A DNA stretch of 64,000 nucleotides from Paracoccaceae bacterium. GTDB taxonomy: Bacteria > Pseudomonadota > Alphaproteobacteria > Rhodobacterales > Rhodobacteraceae. This document shows positions 22,830 to 33,777 of the stretch, one piece after another. Each line of letters opens with the position of its first letter. Positions within the stretch are counted from its first letter, which is position 1. The position numbers and the translations under genes are program-made. The notes beneath the pieces were generated by a model. That model did no database searches. It was given only the letters and a program-made list of their open reading frames with translations, and was not told where the DNA came from. The DNA lies in assembly GCA_014879735.1 (NCBI GenBank), contig JACSRN010000080.1, positions 1 to 64,000 on the forward strand. The letters are read 5' to 3'.

Positions 22830-25253
22830 ATGAAATTCACCCTTTCCTGGCTGCACGATCATCTCGACACCTCGGCGACCGTCGCCGAGATTTCCGAGAC
22901 GCTGACCGACCTTGGGCTGGAGGTCGAGCGGGTCGAGGATCCGGCCGCCGCATTGTCGGCCTTCCGCATCTGCCGGGTGATCGAGGCGGTGCAGCACCCC
23001 AATGCCGACCGGCTGCGCGTCTGCCGCGTGGCAACCTGGCCCGATGGCCCGGAAACCGGCATGGTGGAGGTGCAGGTCGTCTGCGGCGCGCCGAATGCCC
23101 GCACCGGCCTGATCGGCGTTTTTGCCCCGCCCGGCACCCATGTCCCGGGCACCGGCGTCGATCTGAAGCCGGGTGTCATCCGTGGCGTGGAATCGAACGG
23201 CATGCTGTGTTCGGAACGCGAACTGATGCTGTCGGACAACCACGACGGTATCATCGAACTGCCCGAGGACGCACCGATGGGGGTACGGTTCGTCGATTAT
23301 CGCGGGCTGAACGATCCGGTGTTCGAGGTCAAGGTGACGCCGAACCGCCCCGATGCGCTGGGAATCCGCGGTATTGCCCGCGATCTGGCCGCGCGCGGCC
23401 TCGGCCGGCTGAAACCGCTGGAAATCGTGCCGGTGCAGGGCAGCTTTGACAGCCCGGTGGGCGTGCGGATCGCACCCTCGCTGAAGGCGAAGGGCTGCCC
23501 GCATTTTGCCGGCCGGGTCATCCGTGGCGTGAGGAACGGCCCCTCGCCCGACTGGCTGCAGAACCGGCTGAAGGCCATCGGCCTTCGCCCGATCTCTGCG
23601 CTGGTCGACATCACCAACTTCTTCACCATCGGCCTGAACCGGCCGCTGCATGTGTTCGACGTGGCAAAGGTCAGGGGCGGGATGCTGCAGATCCACCCCG
23701 CCGAGGGCGGCGAGGACCTGCTGGCGCTGGATGGGCGGACCTACAGGCTGGCGGCGGATCAGATGCTGATTTCCGACGGCGAAGGCACGCCGGAGTCGCT
23801 GGCCGGCATCATGGGCGGCGAGGCTTCGGGCTGCACTGCAGAGACGACCGAGGTCTTTCTCGAATCCGCCTATTGGGACCCGATCACCGTCGCTGCCACG
23901 GGGCGAGCGCTGAAGATCAATTCCGATGCCCGCTATCGCTTTGAGCGCGGGGTCGATCCGGCCTTCACCGTTCCGGGGCTGGAGCTGGCCACCCGGATGG
24001 TGCTGGATCTCTGCGGCGGCGAGGCGAGCCATGTCGTGCAGGACGGCGCGCCCCTCGACACCACGCGGGCCTACCGGCTGGACCCCGCCCGGGTGATCAG
24101 CCTGGTCGGCATGGACATTCCCGAGGGCGAACAGATCCGCACGCTGACCGCGCTTGGCTTCACCATGGACGGGCTGATGGCGACCCCGCCCAGCTGGCGC
24201 CCCGATGTGCTGGGCGAGGCCGACCTGATCGAGGAAGTCGCCCGGATCGCCAGTCTTGCCCGGCTGAAGGGCGCCGCGATGAAGCGCGGCCAGCCCGGCG
24301 TGCCCAAACCGATCCTGACGCCCCTGCAGGTGCGCGAAAAGGCAGCGCGGCGAACGATTGCCGCGCTCGGCTACAACGAATGTGTCACCTACAGCTTCAT
24401 CGATGCCAGGGCGGCGATGCTGTTTGGCGGCGGAACCGAGGCAGTGCGGGTGGAAAACCCGATCTCGTCCGAGATGTCGCATCTGCGCCCGGATCTGTTG
24501 CCCGGCCTGCTGTCGGCAGCCGCCCGCAATCAGGCGCGCGGCTTCATGGATCTGGCGCTGTTCGAGGTCGGCCCCGCCTTCCAGGGCGGTGAACCCGGCG
24601 ACCAGCATCTGCAGGCGACCGGCCTTCTGATCGGTGCCAGCGCCCCGCGCGATCCCTATGGCAGCCGGCGGCCGGTCGACGTCTTCGACGCCAAGGCCGA
24701 TGCCGAGGCTGTCCTGGCCGCCCTTGGCGCCCCGGCACGGACACAGATCGGCCGCAAGGTGCCGGGCTGGTGGCATCCCGGCCGCGCCGGTGTGATCGGG
24801 CTTGGCCCGAACACGCTGGCCACCTTCGGCGAGGTGCATCCGCGCATTCTGGCGGCGATGGGCGTGAAGGGGCCGGCGGTCGCCTTCAGCGTTCTGGTGG
24901 CCAATGTGCCCCTGCCCAAGGCAAAATCGCCTGTCCGCCCGGCGCTGACGATCAGCGACCTGCAGGCGGTGGACCGCGATTTCGCCTTTGTGGTGGATGC
25001 CCGCGTCGAGGCGATCAGCGCGGTGAATGCGGCGCAGGGCGCCGACAACGCGCTGATCGAAAGCGTGCGCGTCTTCGACCAGTTTGCCGGCGAAAAGGCC
25101 GAGGCGCAGATGGGCGCGGGCAAGAAGTCCATAGCGCTGACCGTGCGGCTGCAGCCTGTCGCAACCACGCTGACCGAAGCGGAGATCGAAGCCGTCTCGA
25201 AAAAGATCATCGAGAAGGTGACGAAAGCCACCGGCGGAACGCTGCGGGGATAG
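22830..25253 (+). CDS. pheT: Phenylalanine--tRNA ligase beta subunit
   Basis: The 807-residue protein has the full bacterial PheT architecture: start MKFTLSWLHDHLDT, a tRNA-binding OB domain (about 40-150, NADRLRVCRV), B3/B4 editing domain (DITNFFTIGLNRPLHVFD), B5, the catalytic-like core (RYRFERGVDPAF, NEC VTYSFID region), and a C-terminal anticodon-binding ferredoxin-like domain (DFAFVVDARV, VRVFDQFAGE). Length is normal. It pairs with PheS to charge tRNA-Phe. pheS is not in the window; separation of pheS and pheT by other genes is common in related bacteria. Confidence 0.98.
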   Translation: MKFTLSWLHDHLDTSATVAEISETLTDLGLEVERVEDPAAALSAFRICRVIEAVQHPNADRLRVCRVATWPDGPETGMVEVQVVCGAPNARTGLIGVFAPPGTHVPGTGVDLKPGVIRGVESNGMLCSERELMLSDNHDGIIELPEDAPMGVRFVDYRGLNDPVFEVKVTPNRPDALGIRGIARDLAARGLGRLKPLEIVPVQGSFDSPVGVRIAPSLKAKGCPHFAGRVIRGVRNGPSPDWLQNRLKAIGLRPISALVDITNFFTIGLNRPLHVFDVAKVRGGMLQIHPAEGGEDLLALDGRTYRLAADQMLISDGEGTPESLAGIMGGEASGCTAETTEVFLESAYWDPITVAATGRALKINSDARYRFERGVDPAFTVPGLELATRMVLDLCGGEASHVVQDGAPLDTTRAYRLDPARVISLVGMDIPEGEQIRTLTALGFTMDGLMATPPSWRPDVLGEADLIEEVARIASLARLKGAAMKRGQPGVPKPILTPLQVREKAARRTIAALGYNECVTYSFIDARAAMLFGGGTEAVRVENPISSEMSHLRPDLLPGLLSAAARNQARGFMDLALFEVGPAFQGGEPGDQHLQATGLLIGASAPRDPYGSRRPVDVFDAKADAEAVLAALGAPARTQIGRKVPGWWHPGRAGVIGLGPNTLATFGEVHPRILAAMGVKGPAVAFSVLVANVPLPKAKSPVRPALTISDLQAVDRDFAFVVDARVEAISAVNAAQGADNALIESVRVFDQFAGEKAEAQMGAGKKSIALTVRLQPVATTLTEAEIEAVSKKIIEKVTKATGGTLRG

Positions 25254-25508: not shown

Positions 25509-26174
25509 CTATTTGCGCGGCTTGCCGCGCCAGGTGTCCAGCCAGCGGGTAAAGCGGCCCCAGACCCCGCGTGCGCCGGCGGCGGCGGCATCCGCCTCGG
25601 CGTCGATCCGGTCGATGGCCGGATCGACCATCCGTTCGCGGAACTGCAGCCACATCATCCGCGCCATCACCAGAACGAACAGCAGGAACGCGATGATGAT
25701 GATGTTCAGCCAGGGGATCAGCGTCACATCCGGCCCCGAGACCGGCGTGACCTTGACCGCATTGGGATAGATCGAGATCATGGCGATCCGCCAGCCGTAA
25801 TGGGTGATCGCCACCCATTGCGGATTGGCCTTGTCCGACTTGTAGTTCGTCGCCTCGGCCTGCAGCGTGCTGGAATCCCACTTGAAATAGGGCGGCCACA
25901 GCCAGCCGGTATCCTCGTTGCGGTAGACCATCACCGTCTTGCCATCAGGAAACACCGCGTCGATGAAGCGGATGTCGCGCTGGGTCGATGTGGTTTCAGA
26001 GCCGGTGCCGGAATCCTCGATCGCGTAGAACATCCAGTTCGACCCGATCGGCATCAGCTTGTTGTAGGTGTTGATGATCTGCACCACGTCGCGCTGTGGC
26101 AGCGTGTAATGCAGGAAAAGCCCGACGATCACGATCAGGATGATCCGCAGCGCCCATTTGATCTTCGTCCACAT
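25509..26174 (-). CDS. DUF1523 family membrane protein
   Basis: The 221-residue protein has an N-terminal membrane anchor (about 7-25, ALRIILIVIVGLFLHYTL), a domain of about 125 residues likely outside the cytoplasm (RDVVQIINTYNKLMP, DTGWLWPPYFKWDSSTLQAEA), a second segment (about 152-174, IPWLNIIIIAFLLFVLVMARMM) and a charged cytoplasmic tail with an Ala-rich linker. This fits DUF1523, known mainly from Rhodobacterales and of unknown function. It is the last gene of the AAA-ATPase operon, 12 bases after the small membrane-protein gene. Confidence 0.85.
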   Translation of the reverse strand: MWTKIKWALRIILIVIVGLFLHYTLPQRDVVQIINTYNKLMPIGSNWMFYAIEDSGTGSETTSTQRDIRFIDAVFPDGKTVMVYRNEDTGWLWPPYFKWDSSTLQAEATNYKSDKANPQWVAITHYGWRIAMISIYPNAVKVTPVSGPDVTLIPWLNIIIIAFLLFVLVMARMMWLQFRERMVDPAIDRIDAEADAAAAGARGVWGRFTRWLDTWRGKPRK

Positions 26175-26186
26175 CTGCGGCGACCC

Positions 26187-26456
26187 CTACCAGTTCACGA
26201 AATAGACCGTGGCGAAGAAGAACGCCATCGGCAGGATGTAGATAAGCCAGAGCAGGCGCCGTTTCAGCCCTTTTTCATAGGCGCGCATCCCCTCGTCGAT
26301 CCAGGCGTCGCGATCGCCGATCATCGCTTCGGCAACCCAGCGTTTTTCCAGCTTCTCGCGCCGAACCGAGCGCGAATAGGTGGCGGCAAGCCAATAGGCA
26401 ATCGTCAGCACGATCAGTGCAAAGACTGCAAGACGCAGCCAGCCAGCCACGATCAT
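26187..26456 (-). CDS. Small two-helix membrane protein
   Basis: The 89-residue protein has hydrophobic segments at about 5-25 (LRLAVFALIVLTIAYWLAA) and 67-86 (LLWLIYILPMAFFFATVYF) around a charged cytoplasmic-looking loop with KLEKRWVAEAMIGDRDAW. Its ATG overlaps the stop of the preceding gene by four bases, which supports it as real. I do not recognise the family. Together with the DUF1523 protein it gives the operon a membrane platform. Confidence 0.8.
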   Translation of the reverse strand: MIVAGWLRLAVFALIVLTIAYWLAATYSRSVRREKLEKRWVAEAMIGDRDAWIDEGMRAYEKGLKRRLLWLIYILPMAFFFATVYFVNW

Positions 26457-27823
26457 CCCCGCCCCCTGACAGCCCCCCAGGGGCCTACGATATCGCGCAG
26501 ATCGCGCGAAGGTTTCGGTCCGGCCCGCATTTCTGGCCGGGCCAACTCGTCCATCTTCGGCTCGGGGCCGAACAGCGCCTGGCGCGCACCCTCCTTGTCG
26601 ACCTGGTATTCGCGCGCAAGGAAATCGGCGACATGAATCCGCTTCGGCTCGGACCAGCCGCGATAGGCCTCGTAGAAGCGTTCCTTGTGGGTAATGAACA
26701 TCTGCCGCACATCCATCGGCGAAAGCTCGGACAACAGCATGTTCACAAGGTCGCGGTCCCGGCCAGGGCGGGCGCGAAGCGTGTAGAAATAGGCCGGATG
26801 CTCGCTGGAGATCCGCGGCCAGGGACCCGCGCCTTCCGCCCAGCGCAACAGGGCGGCAAGGCCCAGGAATTCTTCGGGCAGCGCGGTACCAAGGCGATAG
26901 GCCACCTTGCGCAATTCGGTCCGCCGGGCATCGCCAACCTCGATCCCCAGATGATCCGCCGCGTCGAGCAGGATGAAATCCATCTTTTGCCGCAGGATCG
27001 CACCGGCATCGGCGCCGCGGGCCTGGACGATGGGCTCTGCCAGTTGGTTGCGCTCCAGCCAGTCGGCAATATGGTTGCGATGGCTGAAATCCATCGCCTG
27101 GGCCACCGGCAGTGCGCCCAGCGTGCCGACGGGCTGCCGGGAGATGGCGCCGGGAAACTTCACGTCGCGAAAGATGTAGAGGCCCCCGAAAAGACTGGTC
27201 CAGAAATTCCCCTGCTCGAAGGTCATCGCGGGCAGGCTGATCGGGACACGGGTCACGTCGCCGGTACGGCGGGCAAGGGCGATCATCTCGCCGATCAGCC
27301 CCTCGTCACGCCAGCCATCCGGCTCGCGCCGGAAACGTTCGATCAGCCGGCCCAGTTTCGCCGCATCGGCGACATGGCCGCCAATCGTGTCGGCCTCGAC
27401 CGTGATCTGCCGGATCTCGAACAGTTTCGCCGGGCTGTCGACGGCATAGACCGAACCCTGCAATTCGCCGGCCACCGCATCGCGCGCCGTCAGGGCAAAG
27501 AGCTGCGCCTCGTTCCGTTCGATGAACTGGGTCAGGATGCCGCGGCTGGTCGAGAAGCGTATGTTCAGAAGCGGCGCTTCCTTCTGCGCGGTGGAGAGCA
27601 GGATGAAGCGCCGGTTCGCGCCATCGGGATTGAGATAGAGCGGATCGCCAAATTCATCGCCGATCTCCGGGCTGTAGCCCGACAGGTCGATGTGGAAATC
27701 GCCGAGCGCCGTGGTGCGCCCGGTCAGATGGGCCAGCGCCCGGTTGTAGCGCTCCACCAGTTGCGGCGAAGAGACCTCGATCAGGTTGCCGAACATCAGG
27801 CCGCGGGCGATGAGGGCGTTCAT
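26453..27823 (-). CDS. Conserved hypothetical protein of the AAA operon, DUF6638-like
   Basis: The 456-residue soluble protein starts MNALIARGLMFGNLIEVSSP. Notable conserved-looking stretches are DFHIDLSGYSPEIGDEFGD, LLNIRFSTSRGILTQFIERNE and PAYFYTLRARPGRDRDLVNMLLSELSPMDVRQMF. From memory it resembles DUF6638, a rhodobacterial family without known function. No nucleotide-binding or protease motif is visible. Its start overlaps the stop of the 90-codon gene (ATGA) and its stop overlaps the start of the next (ATGA). Such tight packing suggests a complex with fixed stoichiometry. Confidence 0.8.
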   Translation of the reverse strand: MNALIARGLMFGNLIEVSSPQLVERYNRALAHLTGRTTALGDFHIDLSGYSPEIGDEFGDPLYLNPDGANRRFILLSTAQKEAPLLNIRFSTSRGILTQFIERNEAQLFALTARDAVAGELQGSVYAVDSPAKLFEIRQITVEADTIGGHVADAAKLGRLIERFRREPDGWRDEGLIGEMIALARRTGDVTRVPISLPAMTFEQGNFWTSLFGGLYIFRDVKFPGAISRQPVGTLGALPVAQAMDFSHRNHIADWLERNQLAEPIVQARGADAGAILRQKMDFILLDAADHLGIEVGDARRTELRKVAYRLGTALPEEFLGLAALLRWAEGAGPWPRISSEHPAYFYTLRARPGRDRDLVNMLLSELSPMDVRQMFITHKERFYEAYRGWSEPKRIHVADFLAREYQVDKEGARQALFGPEPKMDELARPEMRAGPKPSRDLRDIVGPWGAVRGRG

Positions 27824-28092
27824 GGCTTGGGCATCCCCAGGAAAATGCGCTGCGCGAAACCGGTGGTCGCCCCGGCAACGCCATGCCGGCGCCTGGCGGT
27901 CAGGACCGGCCGCCCGGCCGCATCTGCGGCCCGCACCCCCGCCGATGGCGGCGCGGCCGATGCCCGCCTGCCGGGAACAGGGCCTGCCCCCCGCCGGGGG
28001 CCCGCATCACCGCCACCGCGGCACGCCGGCGACTGGCTTGCCCCGGCATCACGGATGGGCCGCCGCCCCGTCATCGGATCGAACCTGATCAC
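27820..28092 (-). CDS. Small Arg/Ala/Gly-rich protein, GTG start, coupled to both neighbours
   Basis: This 90-codon frame starts at GTG 28092 inside the stop of the AAA gene (GTGA) and ends inside the start of the next gene (ATGA). Without it there would be a 265-base hole in an otherwise contiguous operon. The ends look structured and possibly conserved (VIRFDPMTGRRPIRD at the start, TTGFAQRIFLGMPKP at the end), while the middle is a low-complexity Arg/Gly/Ala/Pro linker with two cysteines. It may be a linker or adaptor peptide. Function is unknown. Coding status rests on the overlaps, not on homology. Confidence 0.65.
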   Translation of the reverse strand: MIRFDPMTGRRPIRDAGASQSPACRGGGDAGPRRGAGPVPGRRASAAPPSAGVRAADAAGRPVLTARRRHGVAGATTGFAQRIFLGMPKP

Positions 28093-30023
28093 CCTTGCCC
28101 CGCCAGATACCGCCGCCGTGCCTCTTCGGCGCGCTGCATGTCGCGCACCATCGTCTCGATGGCCACCTCGTCCGATTTGTCGGCATAACGGAACTCGGAA
28201 TCCGCGTAACGGTTCACCTCCTGGATCACCATATCTACCGTGATCGGCCGCGTCAGCGCACGGATCATCGCCAGTTTCTCGTCATAGGGCTTGAACAGGA
28301 ACAGATCCGGTTCCTCCATCCATTCGTCTGGCAATTCGAAATCCATCGCGCGAACCTTCACCGCATCGGTGATGTTCTTGATCGCCCGGCCGGTGAACCG
28401 CTCGTCAGCCTCCTGGATCGCCTTCAGATAGGTGCCGATCTTTGCCAGCGTGTCGAGGGGGCCGATCTCGTCCGCCACCCGGTCCCAGACCCGCAGCAGA
28501 CCCGCCTCATGCGGGCGCGAATGGCCCTCGAAACTTGCCGCCACCGCGCGCTTGATCTCCTGCGCGGCGAAAAGGTCATGCGTGCCCAGCGGAATCGTAT
28601 GCGTCTTGCCCAGCAGAAGCGCCAGGATGTCGATGTAGTCGGCACGGCTCTGCGGCCCGTCGACCAGAAAGCGCGCGCCCGCCCGCTGGCGCAGGGCATC
28701 GTCAACATTCTCGGGATAGTTGCTGAACATGCCGAAGGTGCAGTTGCCGCGGACCACCGTGCCAGCCCCGGCAAAGGCCTGCATGAAGACCGCCGTCACT
28801 TCCTGCTGGCCGGCAGAGGACTGCCGGTCGCCCCGCTTGCCGGCCACCTGATCGATGTCGTCGATGGTGCCGAAGCCGATCACCGTCGGGTCAAGCACGG
28901 CATCGATGAAGGCCTTGGCGTTCTGCCCGGACTTGCCCTGATAGCTGTCGATCTGGTCGATCGAGAAGTTCTGGTAGCGGAACGGATAGCCCGCCACCTT
29001 GCAATAACCGTCCAGCAGGCCCGCCATCATCTGGATCAGCGTGGTCTTGCCCGTTCCCGGCTTACCATCGCCCATGAAGGTGAAGATGAAACCGCCCAGT
29101 TCGGCAAAGGGATTGAGCCGGCGGTCGAAATCATAGGCCATCAGCATCTTGGCCAGCCGCAGGCTTTGGTATTTGGCGATATGGTTGCCAACCACCTCCT
29201 GCGGTTTCTTGAAGGCCATGACCAGGGCGCCGCCCTTTGCGGCCCGCGCCGGCTTGAACCCCGCAATCGTCAGCCCGTCCGCCTCGACCCGCCACGACCC
29301 GGTCGTGAATACCGACAGCCGCGCGCCGTTCTCGGCCCGGATCTGCACCTTCTTCATCAGCGCTTCGGCAAAGGCCGAGATCACCGCCACCAGCCGGGCG
29401 TCATCCACCGCCAGCGCGGCGATGTCCTGATCCAGTTCCCACAGCGCACCCTGCAGCGCGAGGGGGGCATTGTCGGTCAGCACTTCCTCGACCTCGCCCA
29501 GTTCGACCGTCTGGCTGCCGACATGCGGCGCGATCAGGAAGGCCAGCGCATTGGCGAAGGTGAAAAGCACCACCAGCGCCTCGGCCTGCAGCAGTTCGGC
29601 GAATTCCGCGCGCCGGCGATCGGGGACGCGGCCCTCGAGATTGGCGCGCTTCAGTTCGGCCAGGCCCGAGGCCGCGGCAAAGGTTTCGCCCATGGCCAGC
29701 GCGATGGCCAGCGCCCGGCGCAAGGCCGTCAGGCTGGCCGCTTCGATCGGCGTGATCAGCCCGTCCGACAGCGCCTCCACCCGTTCGGCCAGGCGCACGC
29801 CGCCGGGGCGCGCGGTCGAGCGCGTGGTCATTCCCACCACCGTGGACCGGAACCGCGGCCGCGTGCCGATGCCGGGCGACCGCTCGGCCGCCGTCGCCGA
29901 GGCCTCGACCAGCGGTTTTGCCAGCCGCGGGGCATGATCGAAACCCTGAACCATCCCCAACGCCGCATCATATTGCGCGCGGATCGCCTCTTCCTTCAAT
30001 TCCATCGTGTCGCGCACGACCAT
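28089..30023 (-). CDS. AAA+ ATPase, core of an uncharacterised operon
   Basis: The 644-residue protein has a mostly helical N-terminal half (1-290) and one AAA+ domain. Walker A is GKPGTGKT (320-327). Walker B reads FGTIDDID (384-391), with Asp389 where a catalytic Glu usually stands. The sensor/second-region-of-homology stretch FSNYPENVDDALRQRAGARF (433-452) offers arginine-finger candidates Arg445 and Arg447. The C-terminal part (about 480-640) is helical. It resembles ring-forming classical AAA or ClpX-like remodellers. ATG 30023 is used because AAAGG lies nine bases upstream. With coiled-coil and membrane partners it may remodel a protein assembly at the membrane; that is inference. Confidence 0.88.
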   Translation of the reverse strand: MVVRDTMELKEEAIRAQYDAALGMVQGFDHAPRLAKPLVEASATAAERSPGIGTRPRFRSTVVGMTTRSTARPGGVRLAERVEALSDGLITPIEAASLTALRRALAIALAMGETFAAASGLAELKRANLEGRVPDRRRAEFAELLQAEALVVLFTFANALAFLIAPHVGSQTVELGEVEEVLTDNAPLALQGALWELDQDIAALAVDDARLVAVISAFAEALMKKVQIRAENGARLSVFTTGSWRVEADGLTIAGFKPARAAKGGALVMAFKKPQEVVGNHIAKYQSLRLAKMLMAYDFDRRLNPFAELGGFIFTFMGDGKPGTGKTTLIQMMAGLLDGYCKVAGYPFRYQNFSIDQIDSYQGKSGQNAKAFIDAVLDPTVIGFGTIDDIDQVAGKRGDRQSSAGQQEVTAVFMQAFAGAGTVVRGNCTFGMFSNYPENVDDALRQRAGARFLVDGPQSRADYIDILALLLGKTHTIPLGTHDLFAAQEIKRAVAASFEGHSRPHEAGLLRVWDRVADEIGPLDTLAKIGTYLKAIQEADERFTGRAIKNITDAVKVRAMDFELPDEWMEEPDLFLFKPYDEKLAMIRALTRPITVDMVIQEVNRYADSEFRYADKSDEVAIETMVRDMQRAEEARRRYLAGQG

Positions 30024-30072
30024 CGGCTCAGCCTTTCATCCGTCTGCAATCTTTGTCGCGGCGCCCGGCCGC

Positions 30073-31200
30073 TCAAACGCCGGGGATCAGTCGCCCGCCG
30101 GCCCCCACCACGAATTTCCGGATCCCGCGCAGCCCGGCCGGATTCTGTTCGACCAGCACCTGATAGGGTCGCTCCGGCAGCACGATCATCCGTTCGATGC
30201 CAGTCGTGCCGGTATCGGCGCCGGTCAGCGGGTCCAGCCGGAAGATCTGCTTCGGACGCGAGGAGAACCAGCCGTTCTTCACCATCTCCTCGCGGTCGGA
30301 AACCAGATCCTCCACCGTCCAGACCAGCGCCCAGTCCTCGCCCTGGGGCGCGCGGGCATCCTCCAGCACTTTCGAGATCGGGCCGGATTGCAGGGTGAAC
30401 CCGGCCGAATACATCGGGCCGAGGGTAATGCGGCGCAGCCGCTTGGGGTAGGTTGTCTCGAAATCGTCGTCAAAGCCCGTCGCGATGGTCAGCAGCTTCA
30501 GCCCGCCCACCGACTGCGCCAGCAGTTTCTGCTGCATCGGCGGCCAGCGATAGGCATCCTCGGGCAGGGGCCGGCTGCCGTCCTCCTCGACGTCAAGCAG
30601 ATAGACCACCGGCAGGTTGACCTGCCCGTCCCAGACGGCCCAGTGGATCAGGTATTTCCGCCGGCTTCCCGCCTGGCCCAGCCATTGCGCATCGGGGTCG
30701 TTTCTGGCCCAGAACAGCCCGCCCGCCTTCAGCGCCTCGTAATACAACCGTTGCGACAGCGCGAACTGCAGTTCTACCGGCACCTTCAGGTCGCGCAGGA
30801 TGGTGCGCACCATGCGGTCCTTGAATTCGGTCTCAGAGGCCATCCCCGACAGATGCTTGTCCGCCTGCTGGGCGTCGACGGCCATCATCAGCACTTCCTG
30901 CGCCACCGGAAACCCGCTTTCATGACGGTCAATGGTCAGGCGCGGCGCCCTCTCGGCACGGCCGGTCATCTGGTATTTGTGGTTCAGCGCCTGAAACGTG
31001 CCGATCACCCCTGCCAGATAGCGGCCAAGCAGCCGCGATTCCGTCCGGGTCAGGCGGCCTTCGGATTCCAGTTCCGCCGCGACGCGGGCCAGATGGCTGC
31101 CGATCCGCGCGAACTTGGCAAAGTAGCGGCGTGCGACCTCGGCGTCATACAACTCGGCATGGTCCGAGACGAGCGCCTCCTTGACGGAATTGTCAGCCAT
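30073..31200 (-). CDS. Conserved hypothetical protein of the AAA operon, 375 residues
   Basis: The soluble protein starts MADNSVKEALVSDHAELYDAEVARRYF with AAAGGA six bases before ATG 31200. The N-terminal 120 residues are helical. The centre has a beta-rich block (KYLIHWAVWDGQVNLPVVYLLDVEEDG) and the C-terminus another (RMIVLPERPYQVLVEQNPAGLRGIRKFVVGAGGRLIPGV). No catalytic motif is recognised and no export signal is seen. It lies 49 bases upstream of the AAA gene and is probably part of the same complex or pathway. Confidence 0.78.
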   Translation of the reverse strand: MADNSVKEALVSDHAELYDAEVARRYFAKFARIGSHLARVAAELESEGRLTRTESRLLGRYLAGVIGTFQALNHKYQMTGRAERAPRLTIDRHESGFPVAQEVLMMAVDAQQADKHLSGMASETEFKDRMVRTILRDLKVPVELQFALSQRLYYEALKAGGLFWARNDPDAQWLGQAGSRRKYLIHWAVWDGQVNLPVVYLLDVEEDGSRPLPEDAYRWPPMQQKLLAQSVGGLKLLTIATGFDDDFETTYPKRLRRITLGPMYSAGFTLQSGPISKVLEDARAPQGEDWALVWTVEDLVSDREEMVKNGWFSSRPKQIFRLDPLTGADTGTTGIERMIVLPERPYQVLVEQNPAGLRGIRKFVVGAGGRLIPGV

Positions 31201-31320
31201 CGCGGTCCTTTCCCGCTTCCCCCGCGCCGGGCCCGGTGCAAGCCACCGGCCGGATCGGGCCGGCGGCAGGCGGCGGCGACCGGCGCAATCCGCCACCTTT
31301 TCTGGCGCGGCCGGTGGAAA

Positions 31321-32391
31321 TCATCCGCCGTAGGCGTTCTTGTCGTGTTTCTCGACGATCGCGGCAAAGCGCCGGGCAAAACGCTCGTCGGCCTTGGCCT
31401 TCTGTTCCAGGATCTTCCGGGCAAAAACCATGTTCGCCTCGTGCGATTCCAGCATGTCGGCCATCTTGGCATTGGTGGCGGCACCGATCCCGGCCATGGC
31501 AGCCTGCGCCTCCTGGTCGGTCTTGACGCCGATCTCGTTGATGCGGTGGGCCACATCCTGCTGCTGAGCCGTCTTCAGGCTGGAGGTCAGCGCATCATAG
31601 AGCACCACGCGCTGCTTGGTGTCGGTCTGCAGCTTGTTGATCAGCACCAGTTGCGTCGCCGCCTGGTTGGTCAGCGAATCGACCCAGGTCTTGCCCTTCT
31701 CGATATAGCGTTCCAGCGTCTGGCTGCGGGCCAGCTTCACCTGTTCGTCCTGCACCAGCGCGTTGTGCTTGGCATTCTGTTCGGCCAGGTCGCTTTCCAG
31801 CCGGGTCCGCGCGGCGGCGTCCATCTCGACCGCGATCCGGTTTTCCAGCTCGATCAGCCGCGGGTCCATCGCCGCAATTTCGGCCCGCACGGCTTCCAGC
31901 GCGGCCACGGTCTCCTCGCGGTCGGCCAGGGTGGCGGACAGGTTCACCTCGACCTTTGTCTTCTGGTTGTTCAGCAAGTCAAGCTGGCCTTGCAGCAGCT
32001 TCACGATCACATCCGATTTCGAGATCAGATCCTGCAGCTTGTCGTCGATCGTCGCATCCCGCAGGCGTTCCTGCCGCATCGATTCGGATTTCGCGCTGGA
32101 AAAGATGCCGACAAAGCTCTCCCAGCCCGACTTGGTCCGCATCTCGTCGAAATCCTTCGAGAAGGCGGCCGTCACATCGTCAAGCCCCATGATCAGTTCG
32201 GCGATGTTGGCGTTCATCACCTCGGTGTGCTTGTGCACATCCTCCAGCGTGGCGTTCTCGACATCGATCATCGCGCCATCGTCGACCTTCTGCCTCGCGG
32301 CCTCGATCGTGGCGGTAATCGCGGTGATCTTGGCCTGCGCCGCCTTCACCTGCTTTTCGCTTTCGAGAATCTGGCTCTGCAAATCCGCCAT
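31321..32391 (-). CDS. Coiled-coil protein opening the AAA operon
   Basis: The 356-residue protein is almost wholly alpha-helical with heptad-rich stretches at about 1-50, 115-230 and 300-345 (SQILESEKQVKAAQAKITAI, LLQGQLDLLNNQKTKVEVNL). The order of long helices and the C-terminal INKLQTDTKQRVVLYDALTS vaguely recall TelA/toxic-anion-resistance proteins, but I cannot confirm that by eye. GGAGG lies six bases before ATG 32391. As first gene behind the regulatory repeats it likely sets expression of the operon. It may scaffold or be the substrate of the AAA ATPase. Confidence 0.8.
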   Translation of the reverse strand: MADLQSQILESEKQVKAAQAKITAITATIEAARQKVDDGAMIDVENATLEDVHKHTEVMNANIAELIMGLDDVTAAFSKDFDEMRTKSGWESFVGIFSSAKSESMRQERLRDATIDDKLQDLISKSDVIVKLLQGQLDLLNNQKTKVEVNLSATLADREETVAALEAVRAEIAAMDPRLIELENRIAVEMDAAARTRLESDLAEQNAKHNALVQDEQVKLARSQTLERYIEKGKTWVDSLTNQAATQLVLINKLQTDTKQRVVLYDALTSSLKTAQQQDVAHRINEIGVKTDQEAQAAMAGIGAATNAKMADMLESHEANMVFARKILEQKAKADERFARRFAAIVEKHDKNAYGG

Positions 32392-32505: not shown

Positions 32506-33777
32506 ATGTCCGACGCAATGCTGCTTTCCGCCGTCGCTGCCCGTCGCACCGGGCTGATCGGTCTTGCCCAGGAACTGGTCCGCATCCCGACGCTGAACCC
32601 GCCAGGGCTGAATTATCGCCGGATTTGCGACCATCTGGCCGAACGCCTGCTGGCCCAGGGCTGGGAGGTTCATATCCTGCGCGCCACCGGCAGCCCCGGT
32701 GACAGCGAGGCCTTTCCGCGCTGGAATCTGCTCGCGCGGTTCCGGGCCGGGCCTGGACCCTGCCTGCATTTCAACAGCCATCACGACGTGGTCGAGGTGG
32801 GACGGGGCTGGACGCACGATCCCTTTGGCGGCACGGTCGAGAACGGGCGGCTCTACGGCCGCGGCGCCTGCGACATGAAGGGCGGCCTGGCCGCCAGCGT
32901 GATCGCGGCCGAAGCCTTCATCGCCACCCGCCCCGGTTTTCACGGCACCATAGAGATCTCGGCCACGGCCGACGAGGAATCGGGCGGCTATGGCGGCGTG
33001 GCCTGGCTGGCCGAACAAGGCCATTTCGCCCGGGTCGACCATGTGATCATTCCCGAGCCGCTGAACAAGGACCGCATCTGCCTTGGCCACCGCGGCGTCT
33101 GGTGGGCCGAGGTGGAAACGCATGGCCGCATCGGCCACGGATCCATGCCCTTCCTCGGCGACAGCGCGATCCGGCACATGGTGGCCCTGCTGTCCGAGAT
33201 CGAGGACAGGCTGATGCCTGTCCTGGCCGGCCGCCAGACCACAATGCCGGTGGTGCCCGAAGGCGCCCGGGCGGCGACGCTGAACCTGAATTCCATTCAC
33301 GGCGGCCAGCCGGAACCTCTGGCGGGCGCCCTGCCTGCCCCGGTGGTGGCCGACAGCTGCCGCGTCGTACTGGACCGTCGCTTCCTGATCGAAGAGGATC
33401 TGCCGCAGGTAAAGGCGGAAATAACCGGCATCCTGAACCGGCTGGCCGAAACCCGGCCCGGCTTCCGCTTTACCTTGCGCGACCTGTTCGAGGTGCATCC
33501 GGTCATGACGCCCGAAGACGCCCCCATCGTCGGGGCCACTGCAGCCGCGATCGAGCGGGTGCTGGCGCGGCGTCCGGAATTCGTGGCCTCGCCCGGCACC
33601 TATGACCAGAAACACATCGACCGCATCGGCCGCTTGAAGAACTGCATTGCCTATGGCCCGGGCCTTCTGCATCTGGCGCATCAGCCAGACGAATGGGTCG
33701 GGATCGATGACATGGAGGACAGCGCCAAGGTCATGGCGCTGGTTCTGGACGATCTTCTGGGCGGGGCGGCGGGTTAG
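32506..33777 (+). CDS. M20-family metallopeptidase, ArgE/DapE type
   Basis: The 423-residue cytoplasmic enzyme has the M20 di-zinc ligands: His in NSHHDVVE, the shared Asp in GRGACDMKGG, the Glu pair in TADEESGG, Glu in IIPEPLN and His in LLHLAHQPDEW. The dimerisation domain follows EPLN. Members remove N-acyl groups from amino acids (acetylornithine deacetylase, succinyl-diaminopimelate desuccinylase and relatives). Exact substrate is unclear, and it lies outside arg or lys operons. It is transcribed away from the AAA operon. Confidence 0.9.
   Translation: MSDAMLLSAVAARRTGLIGLAQELVRIPTLNPPGLNYRRICDHLAERLLAQGWEVHILRATGSPGDSEAFPRWNLLARFRAGPGPCLHFNSHHDVVEVGRGWTHDPFGGTVENGRLYGRGACDMKGGLAASVIAAEAFIATRPGFHGTIEISATADEESGGYGGVAWLAEQGHFARVDHVIIPEPLNKDRICLGHRGVWWAEVETHGRIGHGSMPFLGDSAIRHMVALLSEIEDRLMPVLAGRQTTMPVVPEGARAATLNLNSIHGGQPEPLAGALPAPVVADSCRVVLDRRFLIEEDLPQVKAEITGILNRLAETRPGFRFTLRDLFEVHPVMTPEDAPIVGATAAAIERVLARRPEFVASPGTYDQKHIDRIGRLKNCIAYGPGLLHLAHQPDEWVGIDDMEDSAKVMALVLDDLLGGAAG

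Follow-up and report, generated by a model that had tools for sequence, protein, structure and literature searches.

The stretch of DNA analyzed here (the window) comprises positions 1 to 64,000 of the forward strand of contig JACSRN010000080.1 in the Paracoccaceae bacterium assembly GCA_014879735.1. Between positions 25509 and 32391, it carries seven consecutive minus-strand open reading frames (ORFs), g1 to g7, which an earlier note, made from the sequence alone, described as a seven-gene AAA+ operon. All seven ORFs were located where that note had placed them. Comparison with related genomes reveals that the run consists of a four-gene core (g1, g2, g3, and g5), two resident neighbors (g6 and g7), and a probable non-gene (g4) lying in a variable slot inside the core. 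The ORFs are as follows.

g1, 31321..32391, minus strand: 356-residue protein, soluble and probably helical, without a Pfam family; first gene of the core.
g2, 30073..31200, minus strand: 375-residue core protein without a family; an alternative start at 31296 gives a longer ORF.
g3, 28089..30023, minus strand: AAA ATPase of the core (PF00004).
g4, 27820..28092, minus strand: ORF of 90 codons in the slot between g3 and g5 (27824-28088); probably no functional gene.
g5, 26453..27823, minus strand: DUF6638 protein (PF20343, 3.7e-199); last gene of the core.
g6, 26187..26456, minus strand: small protein with a pair of hydrophobic segments; resident neighbor.
g7, 25509..26174, minus strand: DUF1523 membrane protein (PF07509, 4.4e-64); resident neighbor.

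From g1 to g7, the junctions measure +120, +49, -4, -4, -4, and +12 bases, with the g2 start taken as 31200; this agrees with the three 4-base overlaps and the single 12-base gap reported previously, yet two of the overlaps involve the doubtful g4. Pfam supports the previous naming of g3 as an AAA ATPase (PF00004, 1.1e-11; 45.8 bits against a curated cut-off of 21.2), of g5 as a DUF6638-like protein (662.5 bits against a cut-off of 27), and of g7 as a DUF1523 protein. g1, g2, g4, and g6 match no Pfam or NCBIfam family above the curated cut-off. The description of g6 as a two-helix membrane protein is borne out by its homologs, all 81 of which have two hydrophobic segments. g3 is present as a single copy in the window's genome. 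A PADLOC search with the seven window proteins gave weak AAA or coil cross-matches only, none of them specific to a core protein, and the view that this is a conserved, AAA-centered set outside any named pathway stands, with no named system found in Pfam, NCBIfam, or PADLOC.

Homologs of g1, g2, g3, and g5 were each detected in 113 of the 196 genomes drawn from the order, the identity of the four genome sets being judged by comparing the lists of genome handles by eye, and in a phylum sample of 299 genomes, g3 and DUF6638 both occur in one identical set of 20. The order g1-g2-g3-g5 is retained in the Rhodobacterales loci that lie wholly within their contigs and also occurs in Sinorhizobium and Vibrio; the conservation of gene order that had been proposed as a check was thus found for these four genes. 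g6 and g7 were not detected in the last two genera. The distribution of the core is patchy, even inside one genus: in that of the window, g3 is present in 11 of 13 genomes and g7 in 12 of 13 (the window's own genome counted). Among more distant genomes, G245, which belongs to the same phylum and is not listed in the same class, carries the core block together with g6 and g7; its g3 identity is 70%, and it is the sole carrier among 229 genomes sampled in its class (E <= 1e-60), which suggests that the block was acquired by horizontal transfer. Neither g3 nor g5 matched phage records. g1, g2, g3, and g5 are an accessory module that is gained or lost in its entirety next to the resident g6-g7 pair. 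Because they are inherited as a block, their products are expected to act together, and we infer that the four proteins may form one ATP-driven assembly. As for the state of individual copies, G123 (C52:21357-24806) retains only fragments of each of the four core genes, in part interrupted by internal stops, and the entire module seems to be decaying there; in G170 (C2:2327816-2339027), about 5.6 kb separates g2 from g3, far above the other loci.

The resident character of g6 and g7 bears on the idea, put forward in the earlier note, of an inner-membrane ATPase assembly that includes both proteins and remodels a scaffold under envelope stress. Both membrane proteins adjoin g5, and g5 and g6 overlap by 4 bases at 31 of 81 loci (the counts for this overlap, for the motifs in 94 homologs, for the flanks of 90 and 21 loci, and for the gap range in 88 loci may include duplicate contigs). 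Every one of the 113 genomes with the core has DUF1523, compared with 76 of the 83 genomes that lack the core (Fisher p 0.002), which is a mild association, and g6 and g7 accompany the core in G245 (L131), as does g7 in G444 (L132). A membrane-gene neighbor, DUF2333, also follows g5 at a second site in Sinorhizobium meliloti, which reads thymidine kinase-g1-g2-g3-insert-g5-DUF2333. However, DUF1523 is present in 189 of the 196 genomes, and in 20 DUF1523 regions from core-negative genomes, g7 was found in all 20, an adjoining g6 in 17, and core genes in none. The core in turn occurs without g6 and g7 in Sinorhizobium and Vibrio. Across 77 loci, the pairwise distances of g6 and g7 track those of the core less closely (correlations of 0.45-0.59) than those of the core genes track each other (0.66-0.80), and g6 and g7 also evolve faster. 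DUF1523 and its small partner g6 are separate, resident genes that are nearly universal in the order; a single complex of all seven genes is not supported, given these results and the lack of a credible g4 gene, and the envelope-stress assembly appears quite unlikely. A side observation concerns the window's g7, which shares 77% identity with the g7 of G705 but only 51-55% with the g7 of nine other congeners, whereas identity in g3 is 81-89% throughout; g7 and g3 therefore have different histories within the genus.

The junction between g3 and g5 is a variable slot that the earlier note missed. The gap ranges from -4 to 2129 bases (88 loci) and is at least 150 bases in 77 of 94 distinct loci, a set that includes the window and in which loci with identical g3 ends were counted once; L051 to L130 are the best 80 g3 matches, which biases the sample to close relatives. 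The slots hold a total of 102 ORFs in 50 families (phmmer, 1e-4), 35 of which are singletons, in a census that was made without a GC filter, may include spurious ORFs, and counts the window's g4. The first slot ORF overlaps the g3 stop by 4 bases in 30 of the 77 loci, the last slot ORF shares 4 bases with the g5 start in 48, and both overlaps occur together in 20. Slot GC is lower than that of g3 by more than 0.05 in 38 of the 77. Congeners of the window differ at this position. The slot of L197 (the L058 contig) encodes a Toll/interleukin-1 receptor (TIR) protein, those of L198 and L200 encode membrane proteins of about 280 residues, those of L196, L201, and the L199/L202/L203/L204 type encode small membrane proteins that do not group together, and that of L205 encodes a 250-residue protein plus another small membrane protein. 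The slot contents turn over between strains and are often translationally coupled to the core genes. In the window itself, the slot holds nothing credible: g4 occupies exactly the place of the cargo ORFs in relatives, but its GC at codon positions 1/2/3 is nearly equal (.76/.75/.78), compared with.63-.69/.36-.46/.81-.85 for g1, g2, g3, and g5, and no homolog was found in loci L048-L141 (phmmer, E <= 1e-3). Because of this flat GC profile and the absence of a detected homolog in those loci, g4, previously read as a 90-residue basic protein, is probably noncoding.

Family searches of the cargo used 78 of the 84 slot ORFs that passed a codon-GC filter, six being omitted by hand, and the filter loses low-GC genes; the control consisted of 78 of 372 flanking ORFs (the first 78 of a random 148). 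The cargo consists mainly of small membrane proteins, at least two hydrophobic segments being present in 49 of the 78 slot ORFs and 10 of the 78 flanking ORFs (Fisher 1e-10). In Pfam (E <= 0.01), DUF559 was matched by seven slot ORFs and MTES_1575 by six, perhaps the identical ORFs, and TIR_2, Mrr_cat, PIN_10, RNase_T, SLFN_AlbA_2, and NA-iREase1 were matched once each. NCBIfam returned DUF559 and exonuclease names, along with anti-phage ProA and Hhe in two ORFs each. The flanking ORFs match 103 Pfam families, of which the 25 listed are mainly metabolic. In PADLOC, the slot ORFs match 30 families, of which 25 were listed, including in some cases the PDC-S02, -S16, -S31, -S37, -S48, or -S66 models, yet the 30 arise from only 7-10 ORFs, and 26 of the 30 come from L058 (8), L112 (10), L127 (4), L055 (3), and L091 (1). 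The control yields single members of five PADLOC families, the best being mad3 (1.3e-19) and AriA (5.6e-7). By ORF count, this amounts to 7-10 of 78 slot and 1-5 of 78 flanking ORFs (Fisher p 0.009-0.77). The kinds of match differ more than their number: TIR, Mrr, and DEDDh are found in the slot and none among the control's PADLOC matches, on which the lack of nucleases in the control rests, since only 25 of its 103 Pfam families were listed. When cargo proteins were run singly in PADLOC, that of L112 was Mrr-like (mREase_IV, 9e-33), that of L055 was assigned as a DEDDh exonuclease, that of L127 as PDC-S31, and that of L091 gave a weak CARF-HEPN match. Single-protein Pfam runs of ten cargo proteins identified AlbA_2 in L054 and, in L084, a DUF433 protein (barely above the cut-off) adjoining PIN_10, a combination that presumably resembles a toxin-antitoxin pair. 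Of the ten proteins, six were unmatched or weakly matched. An abortive-infection-like label for the membrane cargo of about 280 residues was rejected, with no Pfam match for the L198 protein and no PADLOC match for that of L114. A 345-residue cargo protein (L097:9923-10960) shows a subthreshold match to HATPase_c_2 (7e-4).

Among the core proteins, g3 has the clearest affiliation. Its Walker A motif, GDGxPGTGKT, is present in 94 of 94 homologs. The classical AAA Walker B motif carries a catalytic Glu; in g3, Walker B is DD in 91 of the 94 homologs, with the motif unmatched in three, and when g3 is aligned with 5ubv, the second Asp stands opposite the Glu. The assignment of g3 to the AAA family rests on the profile, and the departure from the classical Walker B Glu concerns activity; the substitution of Asp would perhaps result in slow, switch-like hydrolysis. 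g3 resembles the i-AAA protease and the 26S subunit Rpt4 in having an AAA domain with Walker A, and differs from them in Walker B and in some 300 N-terminal residues without a matched family in Pfam. The PADLOC TRIP13 model matches g3 residues 320-497 (6.6e-5), which could point to a TRIP13/HORMA-type remodeler, as in cyclic oligonucleotide-based antiphage signaling (CBASS) type III, that would have g2 or DUF6638 for a client. The matched stretch is limited to the generic AAA domain, i-AAA and Rpt4 chains match comparably, and in PADLOC the seven window proteins gave no cyclase (CD-NTase) or HORMA match at E <= 1, so that a relationship to CBASS type III seems highly improbable.

The other core proteins are more distant from known families. 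g1 contains one proline among its 356 residues, but its earlier description as a coiled-coil protein was not confirmed: the score in a heptad test (a crude 3.5-residue periodicity) was reached by 148 of 500 shuffles, and its profile gave weak PDB matches only (E 0.09-0.82), mostly to coiled-coil constructs. Sequence searches of the PDB with profiles of g1, g2, and g5 returned no significant match. The predicted structures of g2 and g5 have pLDDT values of 92.0 and 85.7, respectively, and Foldseek with these models found nothing at E <= 0.001. VIA-align related the beta domain of g2 to urate oxidase and other tunneling-fold enzymes with Z up to 5.9 (3.4 A, 115 aligned), a value below the tool's stated trust level, and gave Z <= 4.4 (3.0 A, 43 aligned) for g5. 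Two candidate relationships found no support: TelA (PF05816) for g1, with no Pfam match at E <= 0.1 and an hhalign probability of 0.2% against a TelA alignment of three rows only, and g2 as a DUF6638 homolog, with an hhalign probability of 0.4%. A separate TelA gene lies elsewhere in the window's genome (G000 C199:3017-4006), for which the same hhalign test gave no sign of a relationship to g1. ARAGORN also predicts a tRNA-Arg (gcg) at 27016-27104 on the plus strand, antisense within the DUF6638 gene, which is a probable false positive.

The position and nature of the cargo recall three published cases. In a type I restriction-modification operon, DarTG2 is embedded between hsdS and hsdR, at a site regarded as a potential recombination hotspot (PMC12255303); the present locus likewise combines a conserved operon with an internal junction that holds unrelated defense genes, but the restriction-modification operon is a proven defense system, and the core here has no matched family in common with HsdM, HsdS, or HsdR. 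BREX loci contain embedded nuclease effectors (PMC12839542), which is similar to the varied nucleases inside this AAA-containing core, although no BREX model was matched at E <= 1 by the seven proteins in PADLOC and the core gave no methyltransferase or PglZ match. The PDC and Hma-embedded candidates were found via guilt-by-embedding inside known systems (PMC12988326); some slot cargo matches PDC models, but this cargo lies inside a core of uncharacterized families rather than a known system. In the literature searched, DUF6638 was not found, most subscription papers and preprints lying outside the search, and the combination of an effector with an AAA ATPase, a coiled-coil protein, and TIR had no match.

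With 50 families at one conserved junction and TIR, Mrr, DEDDh, and PDC matches in part of them, the locus shows the variable, partly defense-related cargo at an internal junction that marks operons with embedded defense genes. The presence of membrane, nuclease, and TIR proteins in a swappable, coupled position points to exchangeable effectors or embedded defense genes, and since such cargo resembles the DarTG2, BREX-nuclease, and PDC cases, we favor the reading that the core may belong to phage or plasmid defense, with swappable effector or embedded defense genes in the slot, at slightly less than even confidence. In this reading, the AAA ring of g3 would remodel or release a g1/g2/DUF6638 assembly upon an infection signal, and the slot would supply a swappable executioner in the form of a membrane protein, TIR protein, or nuclease. 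Alternatively, the slot may hold an independent embedded defense gene that is expressed from the operon of the core. A more specific version is rather unlikely; in it, the locus would represent a new class of immune system with a four-protein, ATP-driven sensor core of uncharacterized families (a perhaps slow AAA ATPase, a helical protein, and two proteins lacking a clear relative of solved structure) and a slot for effector cassettes, the effectors being swapped through recombination in the flanking core genes, with translational coupling kept.

Several results weigh against a defensive role of the core. No core protein is a known defense protein in PADLOC, the slot is shorter than 150 bases and without cargo in 17 of the 94 distinct loci, the PADLOC excess by ORF count is weak, six of ten cargo proteins run singly had no PADLOC match, and the locus adjoins housekeeping genes. 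The empty slots and the window copy without credible cargo imply that the core can persist alone. The same empty slots, the absence of any match to a defense family beyond generic AAA in the core, and the weak PADLOC excess keep another explanation strong, namely, that the core is unrelated to defense and acts in protein or membrane remodeling, with the g3-g5 junction serving only as an expressed landing site that tolerates insertions and at which membrane, nuclease, and other genes replace one another via recombination in the conserved flanking genes. Inserts also occur at the g1-g2 and g2-g3 junctions (in a search of 29 of 31 ORFs, one match each to Fic, DUF4279, Glycolipid_bind, and CopD), which is consistent with such a carrier. 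However, membrane proteins are far more frequent in the cargo than in the flanks (49 versus 10 of 78), metabolic enzymes are missing among the listed cargo families, unlike those of the flanks, and the core itself is gained and lost patchily. A carrier operon is a possible, though less probable, explanation than the defense-related core. For the insert between g2 and g3 at L139:7803-8633, the ORF reads like Fic, and the Fic match was assigned to it by eye.

If the core is defensive, it adds one more system, present in 113 of the 196 sampled genomes of the order, whose effectors could be discovered by reading between the AAA and DUF6638 genes; even as a mere carrier, the slot would constitute a collection of small membrane proteins and nucleases. 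In either case, the picture of the locus is corrected in that DUF1523 and its small partner are not part of the core.

The surroundings of the locus provide further support for a module, as occupied and empty versions of the site exist with the same flanking genes. In the window, the outer flanks are as follows.

M20 peptidase-like gene, 32506..33777, plus strand: divergent outer flank beside g1; flank homologs match Peptidase_M20.
pheT-like gene, 22830..25253, plus strand: outer flank beyond g7; tRNA_synthFbeta is matched by one flank ORF.

Among 90 core-positive loci, 25 have a divergent M20 peptidase gene at a distance of 115-770 bases from g1; among 21 core-negative loci, 8 have one at 94-532 bases from g6 or g7. 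A pheT-like gene lies no more than 2.5 kb from g7 in 15 of the 90 and 1 of the 21, respectively. In L054, L055, L057, L059, L061, and L066, the arrangement is panC, core, g6, g7, and pheT, whereas in L206, from a congener, the core is absent and panC, g6, g7, and pheT adjoin one another, together with a gene reading like panB. Between thymidine kinase and DUF2333, the genes that border the second site in S. meliloti, Rhizobium leguminosarum pSK03 (L207:8794-9867) carries a lone 357-residue relative of g1, which is distant, is without part of a stretch conserved elsewhere, and is perhaps the remnant of a lost module.

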